A DNA stretch of 58,841 bases from Candidatus Eiseniibacteriota bacterium (GTDB lineage Bacteria > Eisenbacteria > RBG-16-71-46 > JAFGJU01): positions 804,833-863,673 of the forward strand of contig CP070702.1 of NCBI GenBank assembly GCA_020349905.1, read 5' to 3'. Both the position numbers and the translations under genes were made by a program. Shown here in pieces: positions 10,190 through 21,037 of this stretch. The notes beneath the pieces were generated by a model. The model did no database searches and had not been told where the DNA came from. It saw only the letters and a program-made list of their open reading frames with translations. Position 1 is the first letter of the stretch, and each line of letters begins with the position of its first letter.

Positions 10190-11038
10190 GTGAGTAGTGC
10201 GTCCAGACGGGGCCTACTGTTTGCACCTGCCGGGAATGCGGTCAAGTGCTTGTCAGTTCTGGTGATGGTTGTGTCAGTTGCGGTCGGAGGTTGTGCGGCC
10301 ACGCACCGGGGCGCAGACGGCACGGCCACGGGTACCTTGCGGATGGAAGATCTTGCCAGGCCCGAAGATGCCGGTGTCTGGGAAGCCGGAGACGAGAGGG
10401 TGAGTTGGGAGGCGGAGCCCTACAGGCTGCAGCCTGGGGACGAGATGCAAGTAAGTGTGCTCTACAATAGCAACCTCTCGGCTTCGACACGGGTGCTGCC
10501 CGACGGCACGATTTCAGTTCCTATCTTGGGTCAGATGCCGGCCGTGGGGAAGACTCCGCAGGAGTTGGCAGACGTCATCGCCTCCGGGCTCAGCGAGCTC
10601 ATCGTGGACCCCAGGGTCTCTGTGATCGTGACGAGGCTGGCCGGCAACTATGTGTTCATTCTGGGTGAGGTCAAGAATCCAGGGACGCATCCCATTTCGG
10701 GACAGTACACAGTTGCCCAGGCCGTCGCGGCGGCGGGGGGGGCGACGAACTCTGCGAAGCTCAACAGCGTGCTGGTTATTCGCAGGACTTCCCCCGACAC
10801 GGTGACCGGCATCAGGGTGAGTCTTGACAAGGTCCTCAAGAACAGGAAGCTGTCGGAGGACAGGATACTCCGTGCATATGACATAGTGTACGTACCGACC
10901 ACTTTCATAGGTCGCGTGGACAATTTCTTGAGCCAGTTCTTCGCACAGACTTCCTCTCCGTGGCTGTGGTATATATGGGCCAGGCGCGCGATAGACTGGG
11001 AGAGCGGAGGCCAGCTGGAGACTCCCGTGCCGGAGTAG
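10190..11038 (+). CDS. Polysaccharide export lipoprotein (Wza/GfcE-like)
   Basis: A 282-residue outer-membrane polysaccharide export protein. The N terminus has a hydrophobic signal ending in the lipobox AVGGC with Cys35 as the acylated residue. The Poly_export domain runs about 76-150 (YRLQPGDEMQVSV through VDPRVSVIVTRLAG), followed by an SLBB domain from about 153 (NYVFILGEVKNPGTHPISG). It is shorter than E. coli Wza (about 380), with one clear SLBB, like many BexD/EpsA-type proteins. The GTG at 10190 has AAAGGAGAG eight bases upstream. It precedes the Wzz-like gene by 73 bp, so the two would form the export channel pair. Confidence 0.93.
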   Translation: MSSASRRGLLFAPAGNAVKCLSVLVMVVSVAVGGCAATHRGADGTATGTLRMEDLARPEDAGVWEAGDERVSWEAEPYRLQPGDEMQVSVLYNSNLSASTRVLPDGTISVPILGQMPAVGKTPQELADVIASGLSELIVDPRVSVIVTRLAGNYVFILGEVKNPGTHPISGQYTVAQAVAAAGGATNSAKLNSVLVIRRTSPDTVTGIRVSLDKVLKNRKLSEDRILRAYDIVYVPTTFIGRVDNFLSQFFAQTSSPWLWYIWARRAIDWESGGQLETPVPE

Positions 11039-11111
11039 CGGCGTGCGAAGGAGACGGTAGGGCCGCGGGAATAAGAGAGTACAACTAGGATACCGCCGGG
11101 AAAGGTTGCAC

Positions 11112-12485
11112 ATGGCAGAGGTACAGGCAGGAAGACACGAAGCGACCCTGAGGGATTACCTGGGCATCATGTTTCGACAGAAATGGGTAATCCTGACGAT
11201 TCTTGCGATTCCCACGATTATCGTGCTGGTACAGACTGTCGGATCGAAGACTCTCTACAAGTCCACGTCGACCGTGCTCATCAGACGAGGACAGAAGGAG
11301 AGCGCGATAGTCCCGTACGTGACGGTTCTGCCCTGGGAGGAGCAGGTCAGTTCGGAAGAGCAGACAGCCACAAGTGTCGTGGTCATAACTAAGGCCCAGG
11401 AGATACTGGACGAACGGCAATCGGACGTCCCAGAAAATGAAAGAATCCTCATCAGGGGCTCGTCTGTAGAGGCGGGAATAGTCGGGGAGTCCAACGTGCT
11501 CGCCATTTCCTACGTCAGTCACGACCGCCACGTGGCTAAAACAGTGACCCAGGCCGTCACCGATGCCTACATGCAGTACAGAGAGGAAACAAGTCTGGCC
11601 CCCGGTCTCGTGAGCTTCTTCGATGGGGAAATACAGGACAAGGAGACCAGGCTCATAGGCCTGCGGCAGGCGCGAGAGGAGTTCATGAGAGTTCAGGGGG
11701 TAAACGACCTCACGTGGAGAACCAGGATGCTCCTCGACCTGTGGAAGGACTTGACCTCCACGCTCAGCTATGCGGTGTCTCAGAGGATTGTCCAGGAAAC
11801 CAACATCGCCGAGATGAAGAGACTTCTCAGCGACCTGGACGTCGAGGTGCCGGTGATAAGCTCCATGCCTCCTGCCAGCCAGGCGGCCATCAAGGACCTT
11901 CGCCTTTCCAGGATGGCGCTCAAGATGGACCTGCAGAGGAATCTGGCCAGCTACACCGAGAAGGACCAGCGGGTCATCGCCGTCAGGATGCAGCTCGCCG
12001 ACGTGGAAGAGCAGCTGGAGAGGGAGGTCAAGCAGGCCCTCGCCCTTACCGAAGCACAGCTCCCTCCGCTACGCGCGGCCGAAGAGCAGGCCCGGAGAGA
12101 GCTGTCGGCGGTGGAGGCCGCACTGCAAGGCTACCCCGAGCAGGAGACAATGCTGGCAGAACTGGATGCCAAGATACGGGTGCTGGAGAGGGACTACGAG
12201 ACTCTGACCAGTAAGAAGATAGACGCCATGGTCTCCAGGGAGAGTTCTCCTGAGTGGACCGTGGTTCTTCTCTCTCCCCCCTCGGAGCCCACACCTCTCA
12301 GGACCAAGGATTACGTCAGGCTGTCCCTGGGCCCTCTGTTGGGTCTCCTCGTGGGAATGGGGTTGGCGTTCTTGTTCGACAGTCTGGACCATTCTATAAA
12401 GACGAAGGGCGAGGCAGAAGCCATACTGGGAGTGCCCGTGGTGGCTTCCATTGTTGAGATGAAAGAGTGGGAGAAGCAGAAGTGA
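11112..12485 (+). CDS. Chain-length determinant/polysaccharide co-polymerase (Wzz/GNVR)
   Basis: A 457-residue inner-membrane co-polymerase. TM1 is at about 24-44. A periplasmic region contains long heptad-rich coiled coils (about 160-350), and TM2 is at about 401-421 followed by a short cytoplasmic tail. A Wzz-like N-terminal domain starts at LRDYLGIMFRQKW. The kinase domain is not fused; it is the separate CpsD-like gene at 13406. ATG 11112 follows GGGAAAGG; a TTG at 11106 is also in frame. The stop overlaps the ATPase start (GTGA), indicating translational coupling. It controls chain length and links synthesis to Wza-type export. Confidence 0.9.
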   Translation: MAEVQAGRHEATLRDYLGIMFRQKWVILTILAIPTIIVLVQTVGSKTLYKSTSTVLIRRGQKESAIVPYVTVLPWEEQVSSEEQTATSVVVITKAQEILDERQSDVPENERILIRGSSVEAGIVGESNVLAISYVSHDRHVAKTVTQAVTDAYMQYREETSLAPGLVSFFDGEIQDKETRLIGLRQAREEFMRVQGVNDLTWRTRMLLDLWKDLTSTLSYAVSQRIVQETNIAEMKRLLSDLDVEVPVISSMPPASQAAIKDLRLSRMALKMDLQRNLASYTEKDQRVIAVRMQLADVEEQLEREVKQALALTEAQLPPLRAAEEQARRELSAVEAALQGYPEQETMLAELDAKIRVLERDYETLTSKKIDAMVSRESSPEWTVVLLSPPSEPTPLRTKDYVRLSLGPLLGLLVGMGLAFLFDSLDHSIKTKGEAEAILGVPVVASIVEMKEWEKQK

Positions 12486-13330
12486 CGTACGAGAGTTTCT
12501 ACGGATTGAAGGAGAATCCCTTCGGGGTCACGCCCGACCCCAGGTTCTTCTTCTCCGGCAAGAGTCATCGGGATGCGCTGGCATACCTGCGGTATACCCT
12601 CGGCGAGCACAAGGGGTTCGCAGTCGTCACGGGAGAGGTCGGAGTCGGAAAGACCACGGTCGTCAAGACGTTCGTCCAGTCGCTGGAACACGGAGTCGAC
12701 ACGGCCGTCGTGCTGAACCCGAGGCTTTCCTTCAAGCAGCTTCTTTCGACCGTGGTGTCGGAATTCGGCCTTTCCGTTAAGGGAAAAAGCAAGGCGGAAC
12801 TTCTGATCGACCTGAGGAGATTCCTGTTAGACTCGCGGCGCAGGGACAGGAACGTCATCCTCATCCTCGACGAGGCGCAGAATCTCCCTGCGGCGTCCCT
12901 GGAAGAGATACGGATGCTGTCCAATCTGGAATCGGACGACAGGAAACTCCTGCAAATCGCGTTCGTGGGCCAGCCCGAATTGTCGGAACTCCTGGCCCTG
13001 AGAGAGTTGAGGCAATTGAGACAGAGAATACCTGGCATCTGCACCATCGCCCCGTTGTCCAGGCCGGAGGTTGACGATTACGTGAGGACCCGCCTGGAGA
13101 AGGCCGGAGGCGACGGGTCCCCGCGATTCGCGGACGAAGCTTTCGCAGAGGTGTTCAAGCACTCAGATGGGATTCCCAGACTCGTCAACTTCATCTGCGA
13201 CAGGACCCTGCTGCTGGGTTTCGTCGAAGAGAAGAAGCAGGTGGACGCGGGATTGGTCATCGCCGCCGCGAGGGACCTGGAGGTCGGCCAGAGCGAGGAA
13301 GAGGAGAGTCTCGGGAAGGCGGCTATGTAG
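12482..13330 (+). CDS. XrtA/PEP-CTERM-system-type AAA ATPase (ExeA-like)
   Basis: A 282-residue P-loop ATPase. The N terminus TYESFYGLKENPFGVTPDP followed by RFFF is characteristic of the ATPase found next to exosortase-linked EPS genes and of ExeA/GspA-type ATPases. Walker A is GEVGVGKT (51-58) and Walker B is ILILDEAQN (about 119-127), then a sensor region FVGQPEL. The GTG at 12482 overlaps the Wzz stop as GTGA and has GGAGAA upstream; a longer GTG start at 12467 is less likely. No exosortase or PEP-CTERM protein is in the window. It probably powers or regulates EPS assembly with its neighbours. Confidence 0.85.
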   Translation: MTYESFYGLKENPFGVTPDPRFFFSGKSHRDALAYLRYTLGEHKGFAVVTGEVGVGKTTVVKTFVQSLEHGVDTAVVLNPRLSFKQLLSTVVSEFGLSVKGKSKAELLIDLRRFLLDSRRRDRNVILILDEAQNLPAASLEEIRMLSNLESDDRKLLQIAFVGQPELSELLALRELRQLRQRIPGICTIAPLSRPEVDDYVRTRLEKAGGDGSPRFADEAFAEVFKHSDGIPRLVNFICDRTLLLGFVEEKKQVDAGLVIAAARDLEVGQSEEEESLGKAAM

Positions 13331-13405: not shown

Positions 13406-14152
13406 GTGAGCAAGATCTCCGACGCACTCGACAAGGCGGACAGGGAGAGGAGGAAAGGCCTTGAGGGAGGCCGTCCCCCTGAACCCCCTTCTCAACTGGG
13501 GCCCTCGCTTTCGGGTCACCTGCCGAGCGGCATGTGGCGCGAGCTGGGCATCATGCGGAATCTCGTCGAGTCGCAACTTCCGTCCCGCAAGTTCCGCTCC
13601 CTTCTCATCACGGCTGCAACTCCCGGGGAGGGAGTTTCCACCGTCACGGCCAACTTCGCCAAGACGCTGGCGGATGATCCCTCTCTCAACATATTCGTGG
13701 TAGATGCGAATTCGGAAGACGCCGCCCAGCATGAGATGTTCCAGTTGGACAATTCGAGCGGGTTCGTAGAGTTCGCGAGAGGGGATTCCAAACTGGATGA
13801 CGTTGTAAGGGTCACTCCTCGAACGAACCTGTGCGTTGTCACCAGCGGGGCTCCGACCGGAGGAATGTTCCAGCTCGCAGGTACCGAGAGAGTTGCCGCC
13901 TTCATAGAAACCCTTCGGCCTCGTTTCCACTACCTGTTTTTCGATGCGCCTCCCGTGCTTACGTACCCTGAAACGGCCGTGCTGGGAAGCCGCGTGGACG
14001 GGGTGCTTCTGGTTGTCCGCTCCGTCAGCACCAGAAGGGAGGCAGTTGCGCGTGCCAGGGATGCGCTAGTGAAGTCAGGGTGCAACATAGTCGGCGTCGT
14101 TCTCAACAGGTACAAGTACTCCATCCCCGAATTTATCTACAAGAGAATCTGA
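13406..14152 (+). CDS. CpsD/BY-kinase-like P-loop protein with altered Walker A
   Basis: A 248-residue homologue of the cytoplasmic ATPase/tyrosine kinase partner of Wzz proteins. An N-terminal SKISDALDKADRER helix resembles those in EPS-associated kinases. The P-loop reads TPGEGVST (72-79), so Val77 replaces the conserved Lys. Walker A' is VVDAN (98-102) and the Walker B-like strand is LFFDAPP. The C terminus RYKYSIPEFIYKRI holds three Tyr in place of a long Tyr cluster. Loss of the Lys suggests weak or absent kinase activity and possibly an allosteric role. The GTG at 13406 has GGAGGAG six bases upstream. Confidence 0.85.
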   Translation: MSKISDALDKADRERRKGLEGGRPPEPPSQLGPSLSGHLPSGMWRELGIMRNLVESQLPSRKFRSLLITAATPGEGVSTVTANFAKTLADDPSLNIFVVDANSEDAAQHEMFQLDNSSGFVEFARGDSKLDDVVRVTPRTNLCVVTSGAPTGGMFQLAGTERVAAFIETLRPRFHYLFFDAPPVLTYPETAVLGSRVDGVLLVVRSVSTRREAVARARDALVKSGCNIVGVVLNRYKYSIPEFIYKRI

Positions 14153-14206: not shown

Positions 14207-15364
14207 ATGCAAAGATTGATTTATCAGGGTTCGCCGGACGAAGAGAACAGAGCGCGTCTCTTGCTCGAGAAGGCGTCGGCCGCCATTGCGGAGAGGGTGG
14301 GCAGCAGGGGTCTGGACGCAATCGTGCTTGCGGGAGGCTTCGGGAGAGGAGAGGGAGCCCTGCTGCGCGAGGACGGCCCGGACGGCGTTCCGTTCAACGA
14401 CGTCGACCTCCTCCTTGTCGGGTCCCGTCCCAGGGTATCAGCGAGCGTGCTCGGCGAGCTGAGACACTCGCTGGCCAGGCTTCTCCGGGTAGACTTCGTC
14501 GACATCAATTACATGCGCTCTTCCGAATTGAAGAGAGTGTCTCCAACGGTCTTCTTTTACGAGCTTAAGCACGGCAACAGGATTGTATGGGGGGCGCAGG
14601 ACGCCCTGGGTACGCTTCCGTCCTTCGACCCCGCTGAACTGCCCACGACCGAGGCGACGCGCCTGTTTCTCAACAGGGGGTTGGGCCTGCTCTCGGTGCT
14701 CCTGCAGCTGGAGACGGGCGAGAAGGGCGAGCTTGTGGCCAGGAGAAGTGCGGTTGCGTGGAGCAAGATCGTTCTCGCTGCCGGGGACTCGCTGTTGCTG
14801 GAGCGAAGGCTGTATCACTGGTCTTACGTTGAAAGGGCGAGGCGCATGAGGGAAGTGGCGCGCTATTCAGGGCTGGAGCCCGGCTTTTTCGATGCATACG
14901 AGAAGGCCGTCGCCTTCAAGCTCACGGCAGACTTCTCGCTTCTTTCATCGCGCGAGCCGGCCGCGCTCTGCTCCGAAGCCGTGCGCATTCACGAGAGACA
15001 CTTCCAGATGGCAGAACGCCAGCGCACGTTTGCAGAGTTGGCCGACTGGAGCCAGTATCCCTCCGTCGTACTCAGGGTCGGGCTCCAGCCCTTCCGCAGG
15101 AGGCTGAAACACTACTTGACGGGTTACGGCGTGGCCGCTCGAGTCCGCGGCCTGGCACAGTTCGTCAGACTTCCGCTCTGGGACGAGGAGAGACGTCTTG
15201 CACTTCTTCCCCTGGTTCTCTACGCGGTGCGTCAGACCCGCGGTCAGACCAGAAGGGACGGTTGCTTGGCCGAGGCCTGTGCCATTCAGTACGGCAGGAG
15301 GGAAGTGAGAGAGGGCGACTGGAAACGGCTGGCCGCCGACTTGGTGGGGGAATCTCATCCATGA
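14207..15364 (+). CDS. Nucleotidyltransferase-fold protein of unknown function
   Basis: A 385-residue protein not matched to a named family. The N-terminal quarter looks like a minimal nucleotidyltransferase (pol beta-like) domain: GGFGRGEG (43-50), then NDVDLLLV with Asp65 and Asp67, then a third acidic strand VDFVDINY (Asp96/Asp99). The remaining 280 residues are helical and Arg/Leu-rich with no signal peptide or membrane span. The catalytic acidic triad appears intact, so it may transfer a nucleotide or nucleotide-like group. Its stop overlaps the ATG of the phosphatase-fold gene (ATGA), a tightly coupled pair placed between the Wzz/CpsD genes and the flippase. Confidence 0.6.
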   Translation: MQRLIYQGSPDEENRARLLLEKASAAIAERVGSRGLDAIVLAGGFGRGEGALLREDGPDGVPFNDVDLLLVGSRPRVSASVLGELRHSLARLLRVDFVDINYMRSSELKRVSPTVFFYELKHGNRIVWGAQDALGTLPSFDPAELPTTEATRLFLNRGLGLLSVLLQLETGEKGELVARRSAVAWSKIVLAAGDSLLLERRLYHWSYVERARRMREVARYSGLEPGFFDAYEKAVAFKLTADFSLLSSREPAALCSEAVRIHERHFQMAERQRTFAELADWSQYPSVVLRVGLQPFRRRLKHYLTGYGVAARVRGLAQFVRLPLWDEERRLALLPLVLYAVRQTRGQTRRDGCLAEACAIQYGRREVREGDWKRLAADLVGESHP

Positions 15365-16521
15365 GCCGTGGCGATTACGGAAAGATATCCATCTTCGTAT
15401 TGGTGGACGCCCTCGGCTGGGAGTGCGTGCGCTCCAGCAAGTTCCTGACCGACCTCTTGCCGTTCAGGCGCCCGGTCGAGACGGTGCTGGGGTTTAGTTC
15501 CGCCGCGATACCGACTATTCTCAGCGGACAGATGCCGGAGGTTCATTCCCACTGGTGCCTGTTCAAGAGAGGGGGGCTTCTGTCCTGCTTCAGTTGGACC
15601 GCTCCGCTGAGGCTTCTTCCGAGGAAGCTGAGAGAGAATCATCGCACGCGACGCTCGGTGGAGAGAATGACTCGGGCGCTGTTCAGGATATCCGGTTACT
15701 TCTGCCTCTACGAAGTCCCTGTTTCGATGCTGCATCGTCTGGATTACGTGGAAAGACGGGACCTGTGGCAACCCGGAGCCCTGGCGGATTGCTCAACGAT
15801 TCTGGACACGCTCTCGGCCCGCTCGATTCCCTTCTACGCCAGTGGCTGGAGGGGAACGGACGAGAAGCGATTGGAGGCCACTGTGCGAGGGGTGGCTCAA
15901 AGTCCGGTGAGATGCTGTTTCCTCTACTTCAGCGAGCTCGACGCAGCTCTTCACACGTTCGGGCTGGATTCCGCGCAGGCAGAGGCGGAGCTGGTGGCCG
16001 CGAGTGTGCGCATCAGACGACTCGTGGCAAGAACTCAGGAACTCTACTCCGAGGTGGAGCTTTTCGTCTTCTCTGATCACGGAATGACGTCCGTCGTCGA
16101 GGGGCACGACCTGCAGTCTGTAATGGCCTCGACGGGACCCAGGCGCTCGCGCTACATGGCTTTCTATGATTCCACGATGGCTCGCTTCTGGCCGAAGGAC
16201 GACCCGACAGGAGAGATCGTCAGGGAGACGTTGTCTTCCGTCCCCTACGGCAGAGTTTTGTCCTCGGACGAGCTCTCTGAGCTCGGCCTCGGGTTCAACG
16301 GAAACAGGTACGGGGAGATTATCTTCGTCATGGATCCGGGCCACGTCGTCGTTCCCAGTTTCGTCTCGACAGGCGTGCCGAGGGCCATGCACGGCTTTCA
16401 TCCTTCGGACCCTTTCAGCCGTGCCTGCTTTCTGTCGCGCGACGAGCCAGAGAGCGCACCAGGACACATAAAAGACATGCATTCGTTCTTCAGGACTCGG
16501 CTGGGCCTGGAAAGAGAATGA
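15361..16521 (+). CDS. Alkaline-phosphatase-superfamily hydrolase/transferase
   Basis: A 386-residue member of the alkaline phosphatase/phosphodiesterase fold. Metal-site signatures are seen in order: VLVDALGWE (Asp16), a nucleophile region GFSSAAIPTILSG (44-56; Ser46, Ser47 or Thr52 are candidates), FSELDAALH (Asp and His), FSDHGM and a late AMHGFHPSD. There is no signal peptide, so it should act in the cytoplasm, unlike periplasmic phosphoethanolamine transferases. The start at 15361 gives an ATGA overlap with the nucleotidyltransferase-like gene. The pair may add and remove, or make and transfer, a phospho-substituent on EPS precursors; this is inference. Confidence 0.7.
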   Translation: MSRGDYGKISIFVLVDALGWECVRSSKFLTDLLPFRRPVETVLGFSSAAIPTILSGQMPEVHSHWCLFKRGGLLSCFSWTAPLRLLPRKLRENHRTRRSVERMTRALFRISGYFCLYEVPVSMLHRLDYVERRDLWQPGALADCSTILDTLSARSIPFYASGWRGTDEKRLEATVRGVAQSPVRCCFLYFSELDAALHTFGLDSAQAEAELVAASVRIRRLVARTQELYSEVELFVFSDHGMTSVVEGHDLQSVMASTGPRRSRYMAFYDSTMARFWPKDDPTGEIVRETLSSVPYGRVLSSDELSELGLGFNGNRYGEIIFVMDPGHVVVPSFVSTGVPRAMHGFHPSDPFSRACFLSRDEPESAPGHIKDMHSFFRTRLGLERE

Positions 16522-16525
16522 GCAC

Positions 16526-18142
16526 ATGAGAGGCGATGACGAGACAAGAGGACCCGATGTACCCCCGGGAGAACCTGTGAGCGGTGACACCGTGGCCGCC
16601 GCGACGGGAGCCGGTGCGGAACCGGAGTACGCTTCGACGGCCAGGAAGGTATCCACTGCCATGGGTTGGAGTGTGGGTGCCAAGCTTGCCCGGCTGGCCA
16701 TCGCCGTGGCCATGTCCATAGTCGTGGTGAGGGGTCTGGGCAGCCACGACTACGGGGTCCTAAGCATAGTAAGAACCATTCTCACCTTCCTGGCACTGAT
16801 ATGCGGATTCGGGCTGGGGCAGGCAGTTCTGAGATTCATGCCCGAGTTCAGAGTGCGGCGAGACGTAGAGGGACTCAGGGGGCTGTTTGCCTTTGTTCTG
16901 GTCGTTCAGTTGCTGGTCTGGGCGGCGTTTTTCGCCCTGTTCCTGTTTAAGGCGGGAAGTCTGGAAGCGCTGTACAGAACGCCGGGGTTGGGTTTCGTCC
17001 TCAAGGTGGGTGTGGGGCTGCTTGTCGTGGACCTTGTGGCCCTGGTGCTCTCGCAGACTCTGACCTCCTTCTACGACGTGAAGCTGCTGAGCGTGTTCAC
17101 CACTATCTCCCTCCTGGTCACTCTGGGCCTGACCATCGCCTTCCTCAGGTTGGGCCACGGCATAGTGGGGGTCCTGCTGGCTGCCGCCATATCAGGAGCG
17201 ATGCTCTCGGTGGCGCTGCTCGACCGCTGCGCGCTGCACGTTCCCCTCAGTCTCAGGCCCACGTTCAGGGAGACCCGGAGGTTACTCAGGTACTCCGTGC
17301 CCTTTGCAGCGATAGGGGTGCTTAACCTCATAACCTGGAGACAGTCCGAGACTCTGCTGCTGGGCTACTTCAGGAGTCCAGTGGAGGCCGGACTGTTCGA
17401 CCTCGGATACAGGATTCCTCAGCAGGTGCTGGAGCTCGTTCCCGGTGCGGTGTGGCCTCTCATACTGGCCACGTTCGCGGAAATCTACTCGAAGAAAAGA
17501 GAGTCTCTCCCGGATGCCATCGGTGGTTACTACAAACTTCTCTTCGTGCTCGTCGCACCGCTTTCGCTCTTCGGGGCGGCCATCTCCGTGCCGGCCGTGA
17601 AGATACTGTTTGGCCTGCCAATGGAGAGCTCGGGCCTGCTGGCGCAGATGTTCTTCCTGATATTCTCTGTGTCCTTTTTCTCCACGCCCCTCAGCATGGC
17701 ACTGTACGTAATGGAACTCACGTGGCTCAATCTCATCATCTACGTATGCAACGCCTTCGTGAACGTGGGGCTGGACCTCATACTGATCCCAAGGTATGGG
17801 CTGTACGGCGCAGTAGTACCCGTCGCCCTGGTGATTCTTGCCTCACCGTTCGTCTACTACTACGTCCTGAGAGCACGACGGGTGAGCTTCTGGATTCCCT
17901 GGGGTTTTATAGGAAGATGCTACCTGGCGTCCCTTCCACTGGCCGGCTTTTTCCTCGTAGCCAGGTACATCGATTCCGTGCCCGGTCTGGTGGCCGCGTG
18001 CGGGCTCGGCGGCGCCGTCTTCTGGGGCTCTGCAAGGGCGGTTGCCATATTCAGGGAGGAGGATGATTTTCTTCTGCGCGGTCTGGGACCCGGGCTACGG
18101 AGGTTGGTCCTGGGCTTTTTCGGTTGGAAAGGCGGAAGTTAG
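16526..18142 (+). CDS. Oligosaccharide flippase (Wzx/MOP superfamily)
   Basis: A 538-residue polytopic membrane protein with about 12-14 hydrophobic helices starting near GWSVGAKLARLAIAVAMSI. It matches the Polysacc_synt/MatE-type flippases that move undecaprenyl-PP-linked repeat units across the inner membrane. The first 45 residues are a polar Gly/Pro/Glu-rich tail, longer than usual. ATG 16526 is 4 bp after the preceding stop with GAAAGAG upstream. A start at the internal ATG of MGWSVG is possible. It completes the Wzx part of a Wzx/Wzy-type pathway, but no standard Wzy is found nearby. Confidence 0.9.
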   Translation: MRGDDETRGPDVPPGEPVSGDTVAAATGAGAEPEYASTARKVSTAMGWSVGAKLARLAIAVAMSIVVVRGLGSHDYGVLSIVRTILTFLALICGFGLGQAVLRFMPEFRVRRDVEGLRGLFAFVLVVQLLVWAAFFALFLFKAGSLEALYRTPGLGFVLKVGVGLLVVDLVALVLSQTLTSFYDVKLLSVFTTISLLVTLGLTIAFLRLGHGIVGVLLAAAISGAMLSVALLDRCALHVPLSLRPTFRETRRLLRYSVPFAAIGVLNLITWRQSETLLLGYFRSPVEAGLFDLGYRIPQQVLELVPGAVWPLILATFAEIYSKKRESLPDAIGGYYKLLFVLVAPLSLFGAAISVPAVKILFGLPMESSGLLAQMFFLIFSVSFFSTPLSMALYVMELTWLNLIIYVCNAFVNVGLDLILIPRYGLYGAVVPVALVILASPFVYYYVLRARRVSFWIPWGFIGRCYLASLPLAGFFLVARYIDSVPGLVAACGLGGAVFWGSARAVAIFREEDDFLLRGLGPGLRRLVLGFFGWKGGS

Positions 18143-18175: not shown

Positions 18176-19165
18176 ATGCAAAAGAGGAGAATTCTGGTAA
18201 CCGGGGGAGCCGGCTACGTGGGTTCCCACCTTGTACGCAAGCTGCTTTCAAGGGGATACGCTGTTCGAGTCCTGGACAATCTCCTCTTCGGGGATGAGTC
18301 CGTCAAGGAACTCTCTTCGGACCCGGACTTCGAGCTAATGAGGGGAGACATCCGGCACATCGAAGACGTCGTGCAGTCGATGGAGGACTGCTACGGGGTC
18401 ATCCATCTGGCCGGAATCGTGGGCGATCCTGCCTGTGAGCTGAAGCCGGACGTGACCCATGCCATCAACTACGAAGCTACGAAGATAATGGTCGAAATCA
18501 CCAAGTACAAGGGGTTGAAGCGATTCGTCTTCGCTTCCACTTGCAGCGTCTACGGCGCGGCCGAGGACTACGTCCTCAACGAGGGCTCGGTGCTGAATCC
18601 CGTGTCCCTGTACGCCGAGACCAACCTGAGGTCCGAACAGATAATCCTCAGAGGCTTCAACGGAACGGACGTGGTTTCCTCTATCATGAGGCTGGCAACC
18701 GTGTTCGGTGCCTCCTACAGGATGAGGTTCGACCTGGTTGTGAATATCCTCACGGCGAAGGCCGTCAACGAGCGGAAGATCAAAATATACGGCGGGAAAC
18801 AGTGGAGACCCAACGTTCACGTCGAGGACGTGGCCGAAGCAGCCATAACACTTCTGGAGGCGCCCGCCTCAGCCGTAGACAGGGAGATCTTCAACATCGG
18901 CAGCAACGAGCAAAACTACAGGATTGCCGAACTGGGCGACATAGTCCTGCAGTGCATCCCCGGCACACAGGTTGAGACTCTCGACGAGAGCCCCGACCCC
19001 CGCAGCTACAACGTCTCGTTCGACAAAGCGCGCCACGTGCTGGGCTACAGGGTGGGAAGAACGGTGAAGTCCGGGGTCCTGGAGATAGAGAAGATGTTCC
19101 AGGCCGGACTGATAGGCAACTTCCTTGACGACATATACTACAACGTGAAGTATCGCTACAAGTGA
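18176..19165 (+). CDS. NAD-dependent sugar epimerase/dehydratase with YxxxN
   Basis: A 329-residue extended SDR protein. The nucleotide-binding motif GGAGYVG is at 10-16 and the active-site Ser/Thr stretch is FASTCSVYG (119-127). Tyr146 is followed by A-E-T-Asn150, so the canonical YxxxK lysine is replaced by Asn (codon AAC). A C-terminal GKQWRPNVHVEDVAEA is typical of sugar-nucleotide SDRs. Loss of the Lys should strongly affect NAD binding and catalysis unless compensated. ATG 18176 is chosen over GTG 18167. It precedes the ArnB-like aminotransferase by 8 bp and may supply or remodel its keto-sugar substrate. Confidence 0.85.
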   Translation: MQKRRILVTGGAGYVGSHLVRKLLSRGYAVRVLDNLLFGDESVKELSSDPDFELMRGDIRHIEDVVQSMEDCYGVIHLAGIVGDPACELKPDVTHAINYEATKIMVEITKYKGLKRFVFASTCSVYGAAEDYVLNEGSVLNPVSLYAETNLRSEQIILRGFNGTDVVSSIMRLATVFGASYRMRFDLVVNILTAKAVNERKIKIYGGKQWRPNVHVEDVAEAAITLLEAPASAVDREIFNIGSNEQNYRIAELGDIVLQCIPGTQVETLDESPDPRSYNVSFDKARHVLGYRVGRTVKSGVLEIEKMFQAGLIGNFLDDIYYNVKYRYK

Positions 19166-19173
19166 GGAGGAAG

Positions 19174-20373
19174 ATGAAATCTTCGCTGGCATCAGAAGGC
19201 GGAACGCCCGTTCGCAAGGAGTTTCTACCGTTTTCCCTGCCCATGCTGGGAGATGAGGAGAAGGCCGAGGTCCTCAAGGTACTGGATTCGGGATGGATAA
19301 CGACGGGCCCCCGGGCCTTCGAGTTCGAGAAGAAGGTCGCTGCTTACGTGGGCGCTTCAGAGGCCGTCGCCCTCAGTTCCTGTACGGCGGCTCTCCACGT
19401 GTCGCTGGCGGTCCTGGGGGTGGGGCCGGGGGACGAGGTTATAACTTCGACCCTGACCTTCTGTTCGACGGCAAATGTCATAATCCATCTGGGTGCGAAG
19501 CCGGTTCTGGTGGACGTGCGAAGCGACACCCTGGGAATGGATCCGGTCGAAGTCGAGAAGAAGATGACTGCAAAGACGAAGGCAATAATTCCCGTTCACT
19601 ACGCCGGGCACCCGTGTCGTATGGACGACATAGATTCGCTGGCTGCTTCGAGGTCCGTACCGGTGGTCGAAGATGCTGCTCACGCCCTCGGGGCAGAGTA
19701 CAGGGGAAAGAAGATCGGCTCGCTGAGCCGGCTCACGTGCTTCAGCTTCTATCCCATCAAGAACATTACGACTGCAGAGGGCGGGGCCATCACCCTGAAC
19801 GACCGAGAGCTCGCGGACAAGATCCGTCTGTACAGCCTGCACGGCATGAGCAAGGACGCCTGGAAGAGGTACAGTTCAAGGGGAGCCTGGTATTACGAAG
19901 TGCTGTATCCGGGGTTCAAGTACAATCTGACTGACCTCCAGGCGGCGCTGGGACTTCATCAGATGGACAGGCTCGACGGGTTTCTGGCCAGACGAGAACA
20001 CATAGCTTCGCTGTACGACGAGGCCTTTTCGGAGTGTGAGGAGGTGAGCTCGCTCCACGTGGAGAGAGACGTCAAGCACGCGCGGCACCTGTATCCCATA
20101 CTGTTGAACCTGGAGAAGCTCAGCATAGACAGGGGCAGGTTCATAGACGAGTTGAGAGCCGAGAACATCGGCACGACAGTGAATTTCGTTCCGGTCCACA
20201 TGCATCCCTACTATCGCGATACCTTCGGATACGGGCCAGGCGATTTCCCGGTTGCGGAGGACGCCTACGAGAGGGTCATCTCCATTCCTCTGTATCCGAG
20301 GATGACGGACGAGGACGCAAACGACGTGATGGAGGCGGTAAAGAAGGTGGCCTCTCACCATCGCAAAGGCTGA
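19174..20373 (+). CDS. ArnB-like sugar aminotransferase (DegT/DnrJ/EryC1 family)
   Basis: A 399-residue PLP-dependent aminotransferase that would convert a 4-keto nucleotide sugar to a 4-amino sugar. It follows ArnB (UDP-Ara4O aminotransferase) closely in pattern: FLPFSLPMLGDEE, LDSGWITTGPRAFEFE, AIIPVHYAGHPC, VEDAAHALGA, the Schiff-base Lys in FSFYPIKNITTAEGG, and PGFKYNLTDLQAALG. The ATG at 19174 has AGGAGG three bases before; GTG 19162 overlaps the previous stop but lacks a site. With the downstream GNAT, ATP-grasp, ArnC-like and ArnE-like genes it defines an Arn-like module. The exact keto-sugar is unknown. Confidence 0.9.
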   Translation: MKSSLASEGGTPVRKEFLPFSLPMLGDEEKAEVLKVLDSGWITTGPRAFEFEKKVAAYVGASEAVALSSCTAALHVSLAVLGVGPGDEVITSTLTFCSTANVIIHLGAKPVLVDVRSDTLGMDPVEVEKKMTAKTKAIIPVHYAGHPCRMDDIDSLAASRSVPVVEDAAHALGAEYRGKKIGSLSRLTCFSFYPIKNITTAEGGAITLNDRELADKIRLYSLHGMSKDAWKRYSSRGAWYYEVLYPGFKYNLTDLQAALGLHQMDRLDGFLARREHIASLYDEAFSECEEVSSLHVERDVKHARHLYPILLNLEKLSIDRGRFIDELRAENIGTTVNFVPVHMHPYYRDTFGYGPGDFPVAEDAYERVISIPLYPRMTDEDANDVMEAVKKVASHHRKG

Positions 20374-20503
20374 GACCGCGGCCGGTGGGGAGCGTGCGTG
20401 ATGGGGGCCGCGAGGTCACGGCACTCGAGGACGGACTTGAAGGGCCTTCCCTGTGCGGGGAGCATCGTGCCGGCGAAGATGGTCAACGGAGGAGGACGCG
20501 AGG

Positions 20504-21037
20504 ATGAAGAAGAGTCGAGTTTCGCTTCGTGCGTTCGGGATGGAGGAGGTGGAGAGGTCGCTTGACTGGGTGAACGATGATGAAGTGACCAAGTACACGG
20601 GCACTTCTTCTCCCATTTCTGCGGATGAGCACAGGGCATACTGGGAGAAGGAGCTGAAGAACCCGCGGCGAAAAACCTTCTCGATAGTCACGTCAGAGGG
20701 GCGACACATCGGCAACATCGGGCTGCTAGAGATAGACTGGGTCGCCAGAAACGCAGAAGTCTACGTCTACGTCGGGGATGCTCAGTACAGGGGGAAGGGG
20801 TACGGAACGGAAGCCATCCAGTGTCTCGTGGAGTACGCCTTCGGGAGGCTCAATCTACACAAGCTCTTCGCCCGCGTCTATGCGTACAACGAGAGAGGAG
20901 CGAAGAGTTTCGAGAAGTGCGGTTTTACCAGAGAGGGTCATCTCAGGGAGCACGTCTTCAGAAACGGAGAGTATCATGACGTCGCCGTCCTGGGCATCTT
21001 GAGAAGCGAACAGCGGGATTCCGGGCAGACGAGATGA
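20504..21037 (+). CDS. GNAT family N-acetyltransferase (RimJ/RimL/PseH-like)
   Basis: A 177-residue GNAT enzyme. The acetyl-CoA pyrophosphate loop is QYRGKGYG (94-101). RAFGMEEVERSLDWVND at the front and NERGAKSFEKCGFTREGHLREHV (in two parts about 129-151) near the end are typical of RimJ/RimL-like and SpeG/PseH-like acetyltransferases. The ATG at 20504 is fixed by GGAGGAGG eight bases upstream; the frame extends to 20453 without homology. Its stop overlaps the ATP-grasp ATG. Following an aminotransferase, the expected substrate is the new amino group of a nucleotide sugar, giving an N-acetyl or N-acyl sugar; ribosomal-protein acetylation is the alternative. A 130-bp gap before it holds nothing clear. 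Confidence 0.88.
   Translation: MKKSRVSLRAFGMEEVERSLDWVNDDEVTKYTGTSSPISADEHRAYWEKELKNPRRKTFSIVTSEGRHIGNIGLLEIDWVARNAEVYVYVGDAQYRGKGYGTEAIQCLVEYAFGRLNLHKLFARVYAYNERGAKSFEKCGFTREGHLREHVFRNGEYHDVAVLGILRSEQRDSGQTR

Follow-up and report, generated by a model that had tools for sequence, protein, structure and literature searches.

Nucleotidyltransferase-fold and NPP-fold proteins as near-obligate partners in bacterial exopolysaccharide gene clusters

Which function do two unnamed, coupled genes have that lie between a tyrosine kinase gene and a flippase gene of an exopolysaccharide (EPS) cluster? The question was raised by a stretch of 58,841 nt from Candidatus Eiseniibacteriota bacterium (contig CP070702.1), in the following called the window. 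A sequence-only reading had placed the pair between the CpsD-like gene and the flippase, linked by an ATGA overlap, and this layout proved exact to the nucleotide (Table 1). We call the first, nucleotidyltransferase-like protein NT and the second, phosphodiesterase-like one PD. The gene order in the window is two sugar transferases, Wza- and Wzz-like proteins, an XrtA-type ATPase, the CpsD-like kinase, NT, PD and the Wzx flippase, and further 3' follow sugar-modifying enzymes and glycosyltransferases. NT and PD are hence located inside a Wza/Wzz/CpsD/Wzx EPS cluster of an Eisenbacteria-type genome. The CpsD-like gene scores 104.3 bits against TIGR01007, just below the cut-off of 108. The start of NT agrees with its two closest relatives, the aligned N-termini being alike. 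Carriage of the pair on a plasmid was not found. Both proteins had been described as not exported, and this is borne out: neither a signal peptide nor a transmembrane stretch was predicted in NT or PD (19-residue hydropathy maxima of 1.10 and 1.29, respectively), and both are predicted to be cytoplasmic. At 19162-21037 of the window an aminotransferase reaches 401.8 bits against a PseC cut-off of 423.5 and a GNAT protein 86.4 against a PseH cut-off of 93.1; these near-cut-off matches suggest an amino-dideoxysugar in this polymer.

Table 1. Positions in the window of the NT and PD genes, their predicted functional residues and the neighbouring EPS genes
Feature	Position	Strand	Remark
Wza-like export protein (context)	10190-11038	+	
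Wzz-like co-polymerase (context)	11106-12485	+	
XrtA-type ATPase (context)	12467-13330	+	
CpsD-like tyrosine autokinase gene (context)	13406-14152	+	directly 5' of NT in most Eisenbacteria
NT gene	14207-15364	+	385 aa; pol-beta-fold nucleotidyltransferase-like, with C-terminal all-helical domain; without Pfam/NCBIfam family
NT GGFGRGE loop	14333-14353	+	residues 43-49; G43 and E49 in 82/83 homologues
NT DxD, predicted metal-binding pair D65, D67	14399-14407	+	
NT third acidic residue D99	14501-14503	+	D or E in 75/83
Shine-Dalgarno-like GGTGGGGGA of PD	15343-15351	+	nine bases 5' of PD start
NT/PD stop/start overlap ATGA	15361-15364	+	
PD gene	15361-16521	+	386 aa; cytoplasmic NPP/ENPP-fold phosphodiesterase-like protein (PF01663); ATG at 15361
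PD metal ligand D16	15406-15408	+	
PD predicted nucleophile S46	15496-15498	+	invariant, 105/105
PD metal ligands D194, H198 (DxxxH)	15940-15954	+	
PD metal ligands D239, H240 (SDHGM)	16075-16080	+	
PD family signature DSTMARFW	16168-16191	+	D270, T272, R275, W277 invariant, 105/105
PD metal ligand H344	16390-16392	+	
Wzx-type flippase gene (context)	16526-18142	+	PF13440; directly 3' of PD

By sequence comparison NT is nearly without relatives of known kind. It matched no family in Pfam or NCBIfam, PDB sequence-profile searches returned no relative and no significant match, and a scan of genome contigs with NT alone as the query gave zero matches. Weak matches to NTP_transf_2 occur in 7 out of 44 NT homologues (best E 0.025). 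Structure prediction of both proteins, which had been named as a check, assigned NT to the nucleotidyltransferase (NTase) fold and PD to the NPP/ENPP fold of the alkaline-phosphatase superfamily. The AlphaFold model of NT, calculated from a 44-sequence alignment (pLDDT 91.7), consists of an NTase domain followed by a long helical one. When compared to the PDB by Foldseek, its nearest matches were ANT(4'), AAD(9), KNTase and AadA, all of them weak (best E 7e-4, TM 0.33–0.40); MNTs were also among the matches of the N-terminal domain, GlnE was a poor match, and the CD-NTase CdnG a very weak one (E 0.73). Judged by this model, the N-terminal domain of NT has the pol-beta nucleotidyltransferase fold. 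PADLOC did not class NT as a CD-NTase, and no link to defence was found.

The GGFGRGE loop and the three acidic residues of active nucleotidyltransferases, recognized before in NT, are present as residues 43-49 and as D65, D67 and D99. In the helical domain, the basic residues R157 and K187 are found in 83 of 83 homologues, and in the alignment the conservation of G43, E49, R157 and K187 exceeds chance. All three acidic residues are present in the window copy and in 65 of the 83. D65 is replaced by Asn in ten homologues and the third acidic residue is absent in eight; therefore, some NTs may not catalyse. Nine of the ten NTs with Asn have a polysaccharide deacetylase gene directly 3', often together with a family 2 glycosyltransferase (GT2). 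The enzymes ANT(4'), AAD(9), KNTase and AadA transfer AMP to hydroxyls of sugars or aminocyclitols. NT is similar to these ANTs in its succession of NTase and helical domain, in the G-[GS] loop and in the DxD/E motif with a third acidic residue, but differs from them by the absence of any sequence-level match, a longer helical domain, the GGYGRGEG signature, and an EPS context with glycosyltransferase fusions instead of a link to resistance.

PD is easier to place. It scores 50.6 bits against PF01663 (cut-off 23), and its AlphaFold model (pLDDT 96.4) matches Xac NPP (E 1.3e-18, TM 0.70) and ENPP4-6 (E about 1e-18 to 1e-17, TM about 0.70); both choline-phosphodiesterases ENPP6 and ENPP7 are among the fold matches, and ENPP1 has the NPP fold as well. 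All six NPP metal ligands are present in the window copy (D16, D194, H198, D239, H240 and H344), confirming that PD keeps the ligands of the alkaline-phosphatase superfamily. The metal ligands are kept throughout the family, and S46, D194, H198, D239 and H240 are conserved in 105 out of 105 homologues, which in this alignment exceeds chance. With the NPPs (Xac NPP, ENPP4-7) PD thus has in common the fold, the two-metal DxxxH/DH/H ligands and a score above the Pfam cut-off; it is unlike them in its cytoplasmic location, its nucleophile, its own DSTMARFW signature and its place in EPS clusters. Where NPPs have a Thr nucleophile, an HMMER alignment to ENPP7 sets Ser46, and this holds for 105 of 105 homologues; therefore, PD is filed here as a PF01663-fold protein and not as a bona fide NPP. 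Furthermore, the phosphate-contacting Asn of the NPPs, which we take to be N111 of Xac NPP, appears to be missing: the aligned position 67, within a weakly scoring stretch, is occupied by F, L or M in most homologues and by S or Y in others. A phosphomonoesterase activity of PD would therefore be possible.

Do the two genes belong together beyond this one locus? Because the NT family is too divergent, PD was chosen as the bait for genome scans. A PD profile run against 84,980 species genomes found at least 492 relatives, and the best 80 of these, judged by their record titles, span about 18 phylum-level lineages, including Gammaproteobacteria, Verrucomicrobia, Acidobacteria, Rokubacteria, Omnitrophota, Spirochaetes, Cloacimonadota, Myxococcales, Planctomycetes and Chlamydiae. 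Occurrences of NT and PD are almost always within polysaccharide clusters. The number of genomes with both genes, PD only, NT only or neither was 27, 2, 1 and 17 in Eisenbacteria, 66, 1, 1 and 173 in Verrucomicrobiota (241 genomes) and 12, 2, 6 and 150 in Chromatiales (170 genomes). Fisher tests, which ignore phylogeny, give p values for this co-presence of 1e-9, 3e-57 and 2e-12, respectively. In each of the three Eisenbacteria genomes with one gene only, a contig end cuts the locus, and of the six NT-only cases in Chromatiales, five are only distantly related to NT (E 1e-38 to 1e-47). Four loci of this distant type were fetched; none is in a recognisable EPS cluster, and the DxD pair is visibly absent from two. 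Among these loci are L173, L175 and L176 (about 7.0-8.5 kb); in L173 and L176 the distant relative is located beside lepA, apparent rse genes and a degP/mucD-type protease; L175 and L176 seem to have lost the DxD pair.

The physical association is strong too. In Eisenbacteria, NT is directly 5' of every PD for which enough upstream sequence exists. Among 88 NT genes, a number that includes two loci duplicating one genome fetched twice, PD is directly 3' in 43 and a GT2 is 5' in 25, these being the commonest separate neighbours. That the homologues are found together is hence decided by adjacency as well as by genome counts, and the conserved pairing is confirmed. There are also genomes in which the two genes lie apart. 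In 26 genomes the fetched flank of the PD locus contained no NT; 22 of these have an NT elsewhere, and for at least seven of them contig name or length shows that PD and NT share a contig. The distance is 140 kb in one genome and about 3.9 Mb in another, there with EPS genes beside each of the two, and in a third NT and PD are on different contigs. Since the pair is co-present though unlinked, hitch-hiking within an operon is alone insufficient as an explanation. NT and PD distances are correlated with r = 0.83, a value inflated by shared ancestry. The two families are near-obligate partners, even when unlinked, and there is good support for their belonging to a single EPS pathway. As further EPS genes travel along, co-presence speaks for a shared pathway and not necessarily for the same substrate.

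Gene fusions point to a role of each protein in glycan assembly. NT is fused to a GT2 in a Myxococcales genome and to a family 4 glycosyltransferase (GT4) in a Verrucomicrobia genome, and PD is fused to a GT4 in two Omnitrophota; no fusion of NT to PD was seen among the loci scanned. Another frequent companion is a kinase above the NCBIfam uridine-kinase cut-off, which is encoded directly 5' of NT in Rokubacteria and Omnitrophota and hints at a chemistry of pyrimidine nucleotides. The uridine kinase gene of the window organism is not linked to the pair. A uridine-kinase-like gene was noted in six EPS clusters, of which one, from an Omnitrophota genome with the PD-GT4 fusion, has it just upstream of NT; two members were tested. 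In several phyla a partner-switch set of SpoIIE phosphatase, HATPase and STAS proteins is directly 5' of PD (L076, 7700-9900, and about 28 further loci with STAS cluster c5). This is reminiscent of SypE/SypA, which control EPS in Vibrio. A hexapeptide or NDP-sugar-synthase-like protein adjoins NT in several phyla (L110, 13101-14495, minus strand, and cluster c25) and appears to include the C-terminal portion of an initiating sugar transferase.

Taken together, NT and PD probably serve one step of polysaccharide building. The reading we prefer, at a probability of roughly 40%, is a single cytoplasmic modification step in Wzx/Wzy-type EPS assembly, in which a sugar hydroxyl is nucleotidylated by NT, after which PD cuts the phosphodiester. 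NT, as an ANT/GlnD-like enzyme, would take a nucleoside monophosphate (with lower probability a phospho-alcohol) from a nucleotide donor and attach it to a sugar hydroxyl of the repeat-unit precursor or of a lipid-linked intermediate. PD with its NPP fold would then hydrolyse the phosphodiester formed by NT, and this might either leave a phosphate on the sugar or remove the group altogether, as proof-reading or as a reversible cap before flipping. Transfer of a nucleotidyl (or phospho-) group followed by phosphodiester cleavage is favoured because of the folds and the fusions, although the ANT match behind the nucleotidyl-transfer part is weak. Beyond the computed folds, active-site residues, EPS context, unlinked co-presence and glycosyltransferase fusions, we infer what serves as donor and acceptor, in which order the enzymes act and what the final product is. 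Doubtful is a wider version, in which such a step would be widespread in EPS assembly, NT nucleotidylating and PD de-nucleotidylating a glycan intermediate, so that a phosphate is installed or a reversible pre-flip cap is formed, and a uridine kinase would recycle the nucleoside in some lineages.

The acceptor could instead be a protein. GlnD and GlnE nucleotidylate their protein targets, and the GG-Y/F-GRGE signature of NT is, as we take it, similar to the GGxGRxE loop of these enzymes, with which the pair would also share the coupling of adding and removing activities. NT might then modify an EPS kinase, co-polymerase or glycosyltransferase and PD strip the nucleotide off, and it fits that the CpsD kinase gene is directly 5' of NT in most Eisenbacteria and that SpoIIE, HATPase and STAS regulators often adjoin PD in other phyla. 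However, the eraser would here be a separate NPP-fold protein and not an HD or second NT domain, GlnE matches the NT model poorly, the fusion partners are glycosyltransferases and not kinases or regulators, and no one protein target is constant in the neighbourhoods, which makes this explanation unlikely. Still further down we rank a product that acts as a messenger: NT would synthesize a nucleotide signal controlling EPS output, and PD degrade it. CD-NTases have the NTase fold, ENPP1, which degrades cGAMP, the NPP fold, and second messengers often regulate EPS. Against such a signal, PADLOC found a single cyclase match at chance level (E 0.079), the fold match to CdnG is very weak, a constant receptor gene is absent, the third acidic residue of NT is not strictly conserved and glycosyltransferases are the fusion partners; we regard it as very improbable.

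The sequence-only reading had proposed that the pair activates and then transfers or removes a phospho-alcohol group, as in phosphocholine- or phosphoethanolamine-like decoration, on EPS precursors. This is partly supported: its EPS part holds, its phospho-alcohol activation finds no specific support. In capsules, LicD-family proteins of the NTase fold act as glycerol-phosphate transferases, and CDP-ribitol is the substrate of FKRP-type enzymes (PMC11666461); because of this real capsule precedent, activation of a phospho-alcohol or a LicD-like transfer from a CDP-alcohol, with PD transferring or removing the group, was kept as a rival. NT shares with LicD/fukutin-type proteins (PF04991) the NTase superfamily, whose members of that type act on glycan hydroxyls in capsule and teichoic-type pathways, and ENPP6 and ENPP7 are among the fold matches of PD. 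But the PF04991 profile matched neither NT nor any other protein in the whole genome, the structures nearest to NT are ANTs, which put a nucleoside monophosphate on sugar-like hydroxyls, and not CTP:phosphocholine-type cytidylyltransferases, and nothing found indicates a choline- or ethanolamine-type substrate of PD. In addition, neither an alcohol kinase nor a CDP-alcohol enzyme is consistently beside the pair and no CDP-alcohol pathway was seen; the kinase recurring beside NT in other phyla is a uridine kinase and not an alcohol kinase. Phospho-alcohol chemistry thus appears quite unlikely. To be judged improbable is also that NT mainly senses a nucleotide or NDP-sugar for glycosyltransferases and PD is a phosphatase clearing dead-end precursors. 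The replacement of D65 by Asn, the missing third acid of some NTs and an NPP Asn apparently lost from PD would fit a scaffold, and the fusions are compatible with one, whereas the full acidic set in the majority of NTs and the invariant R157 and K187 argue against it.

New here are the near-obligate partnership of NT and PD across lineages and their fusions to glycosyltransferases. The core EPS genes, Wza, Wzx, Wzy and Wzc, have been named already. In contrast to these, a nearly all-or-none module of two enzymes, spread over about 18 phylum-level lineages among the best PD relatives, comprises one family without a name (NT) and one with only a generic name (PD). A description of the pair was not found in open-licence papers, which is weak evidence of novelty, and neither the founding XrtA/EPS paper nor a Sphingomonas EPS deletion study mentions such enzymes. 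To our knowledge, the chemistry of a nucleotidylated or phosphorylated glycan intermediate is not known from EPS assembly; if the pair makes one, this chemistry would be new to the process. Both genes are present in a cultured organism, Thiohalocapsa halophila.
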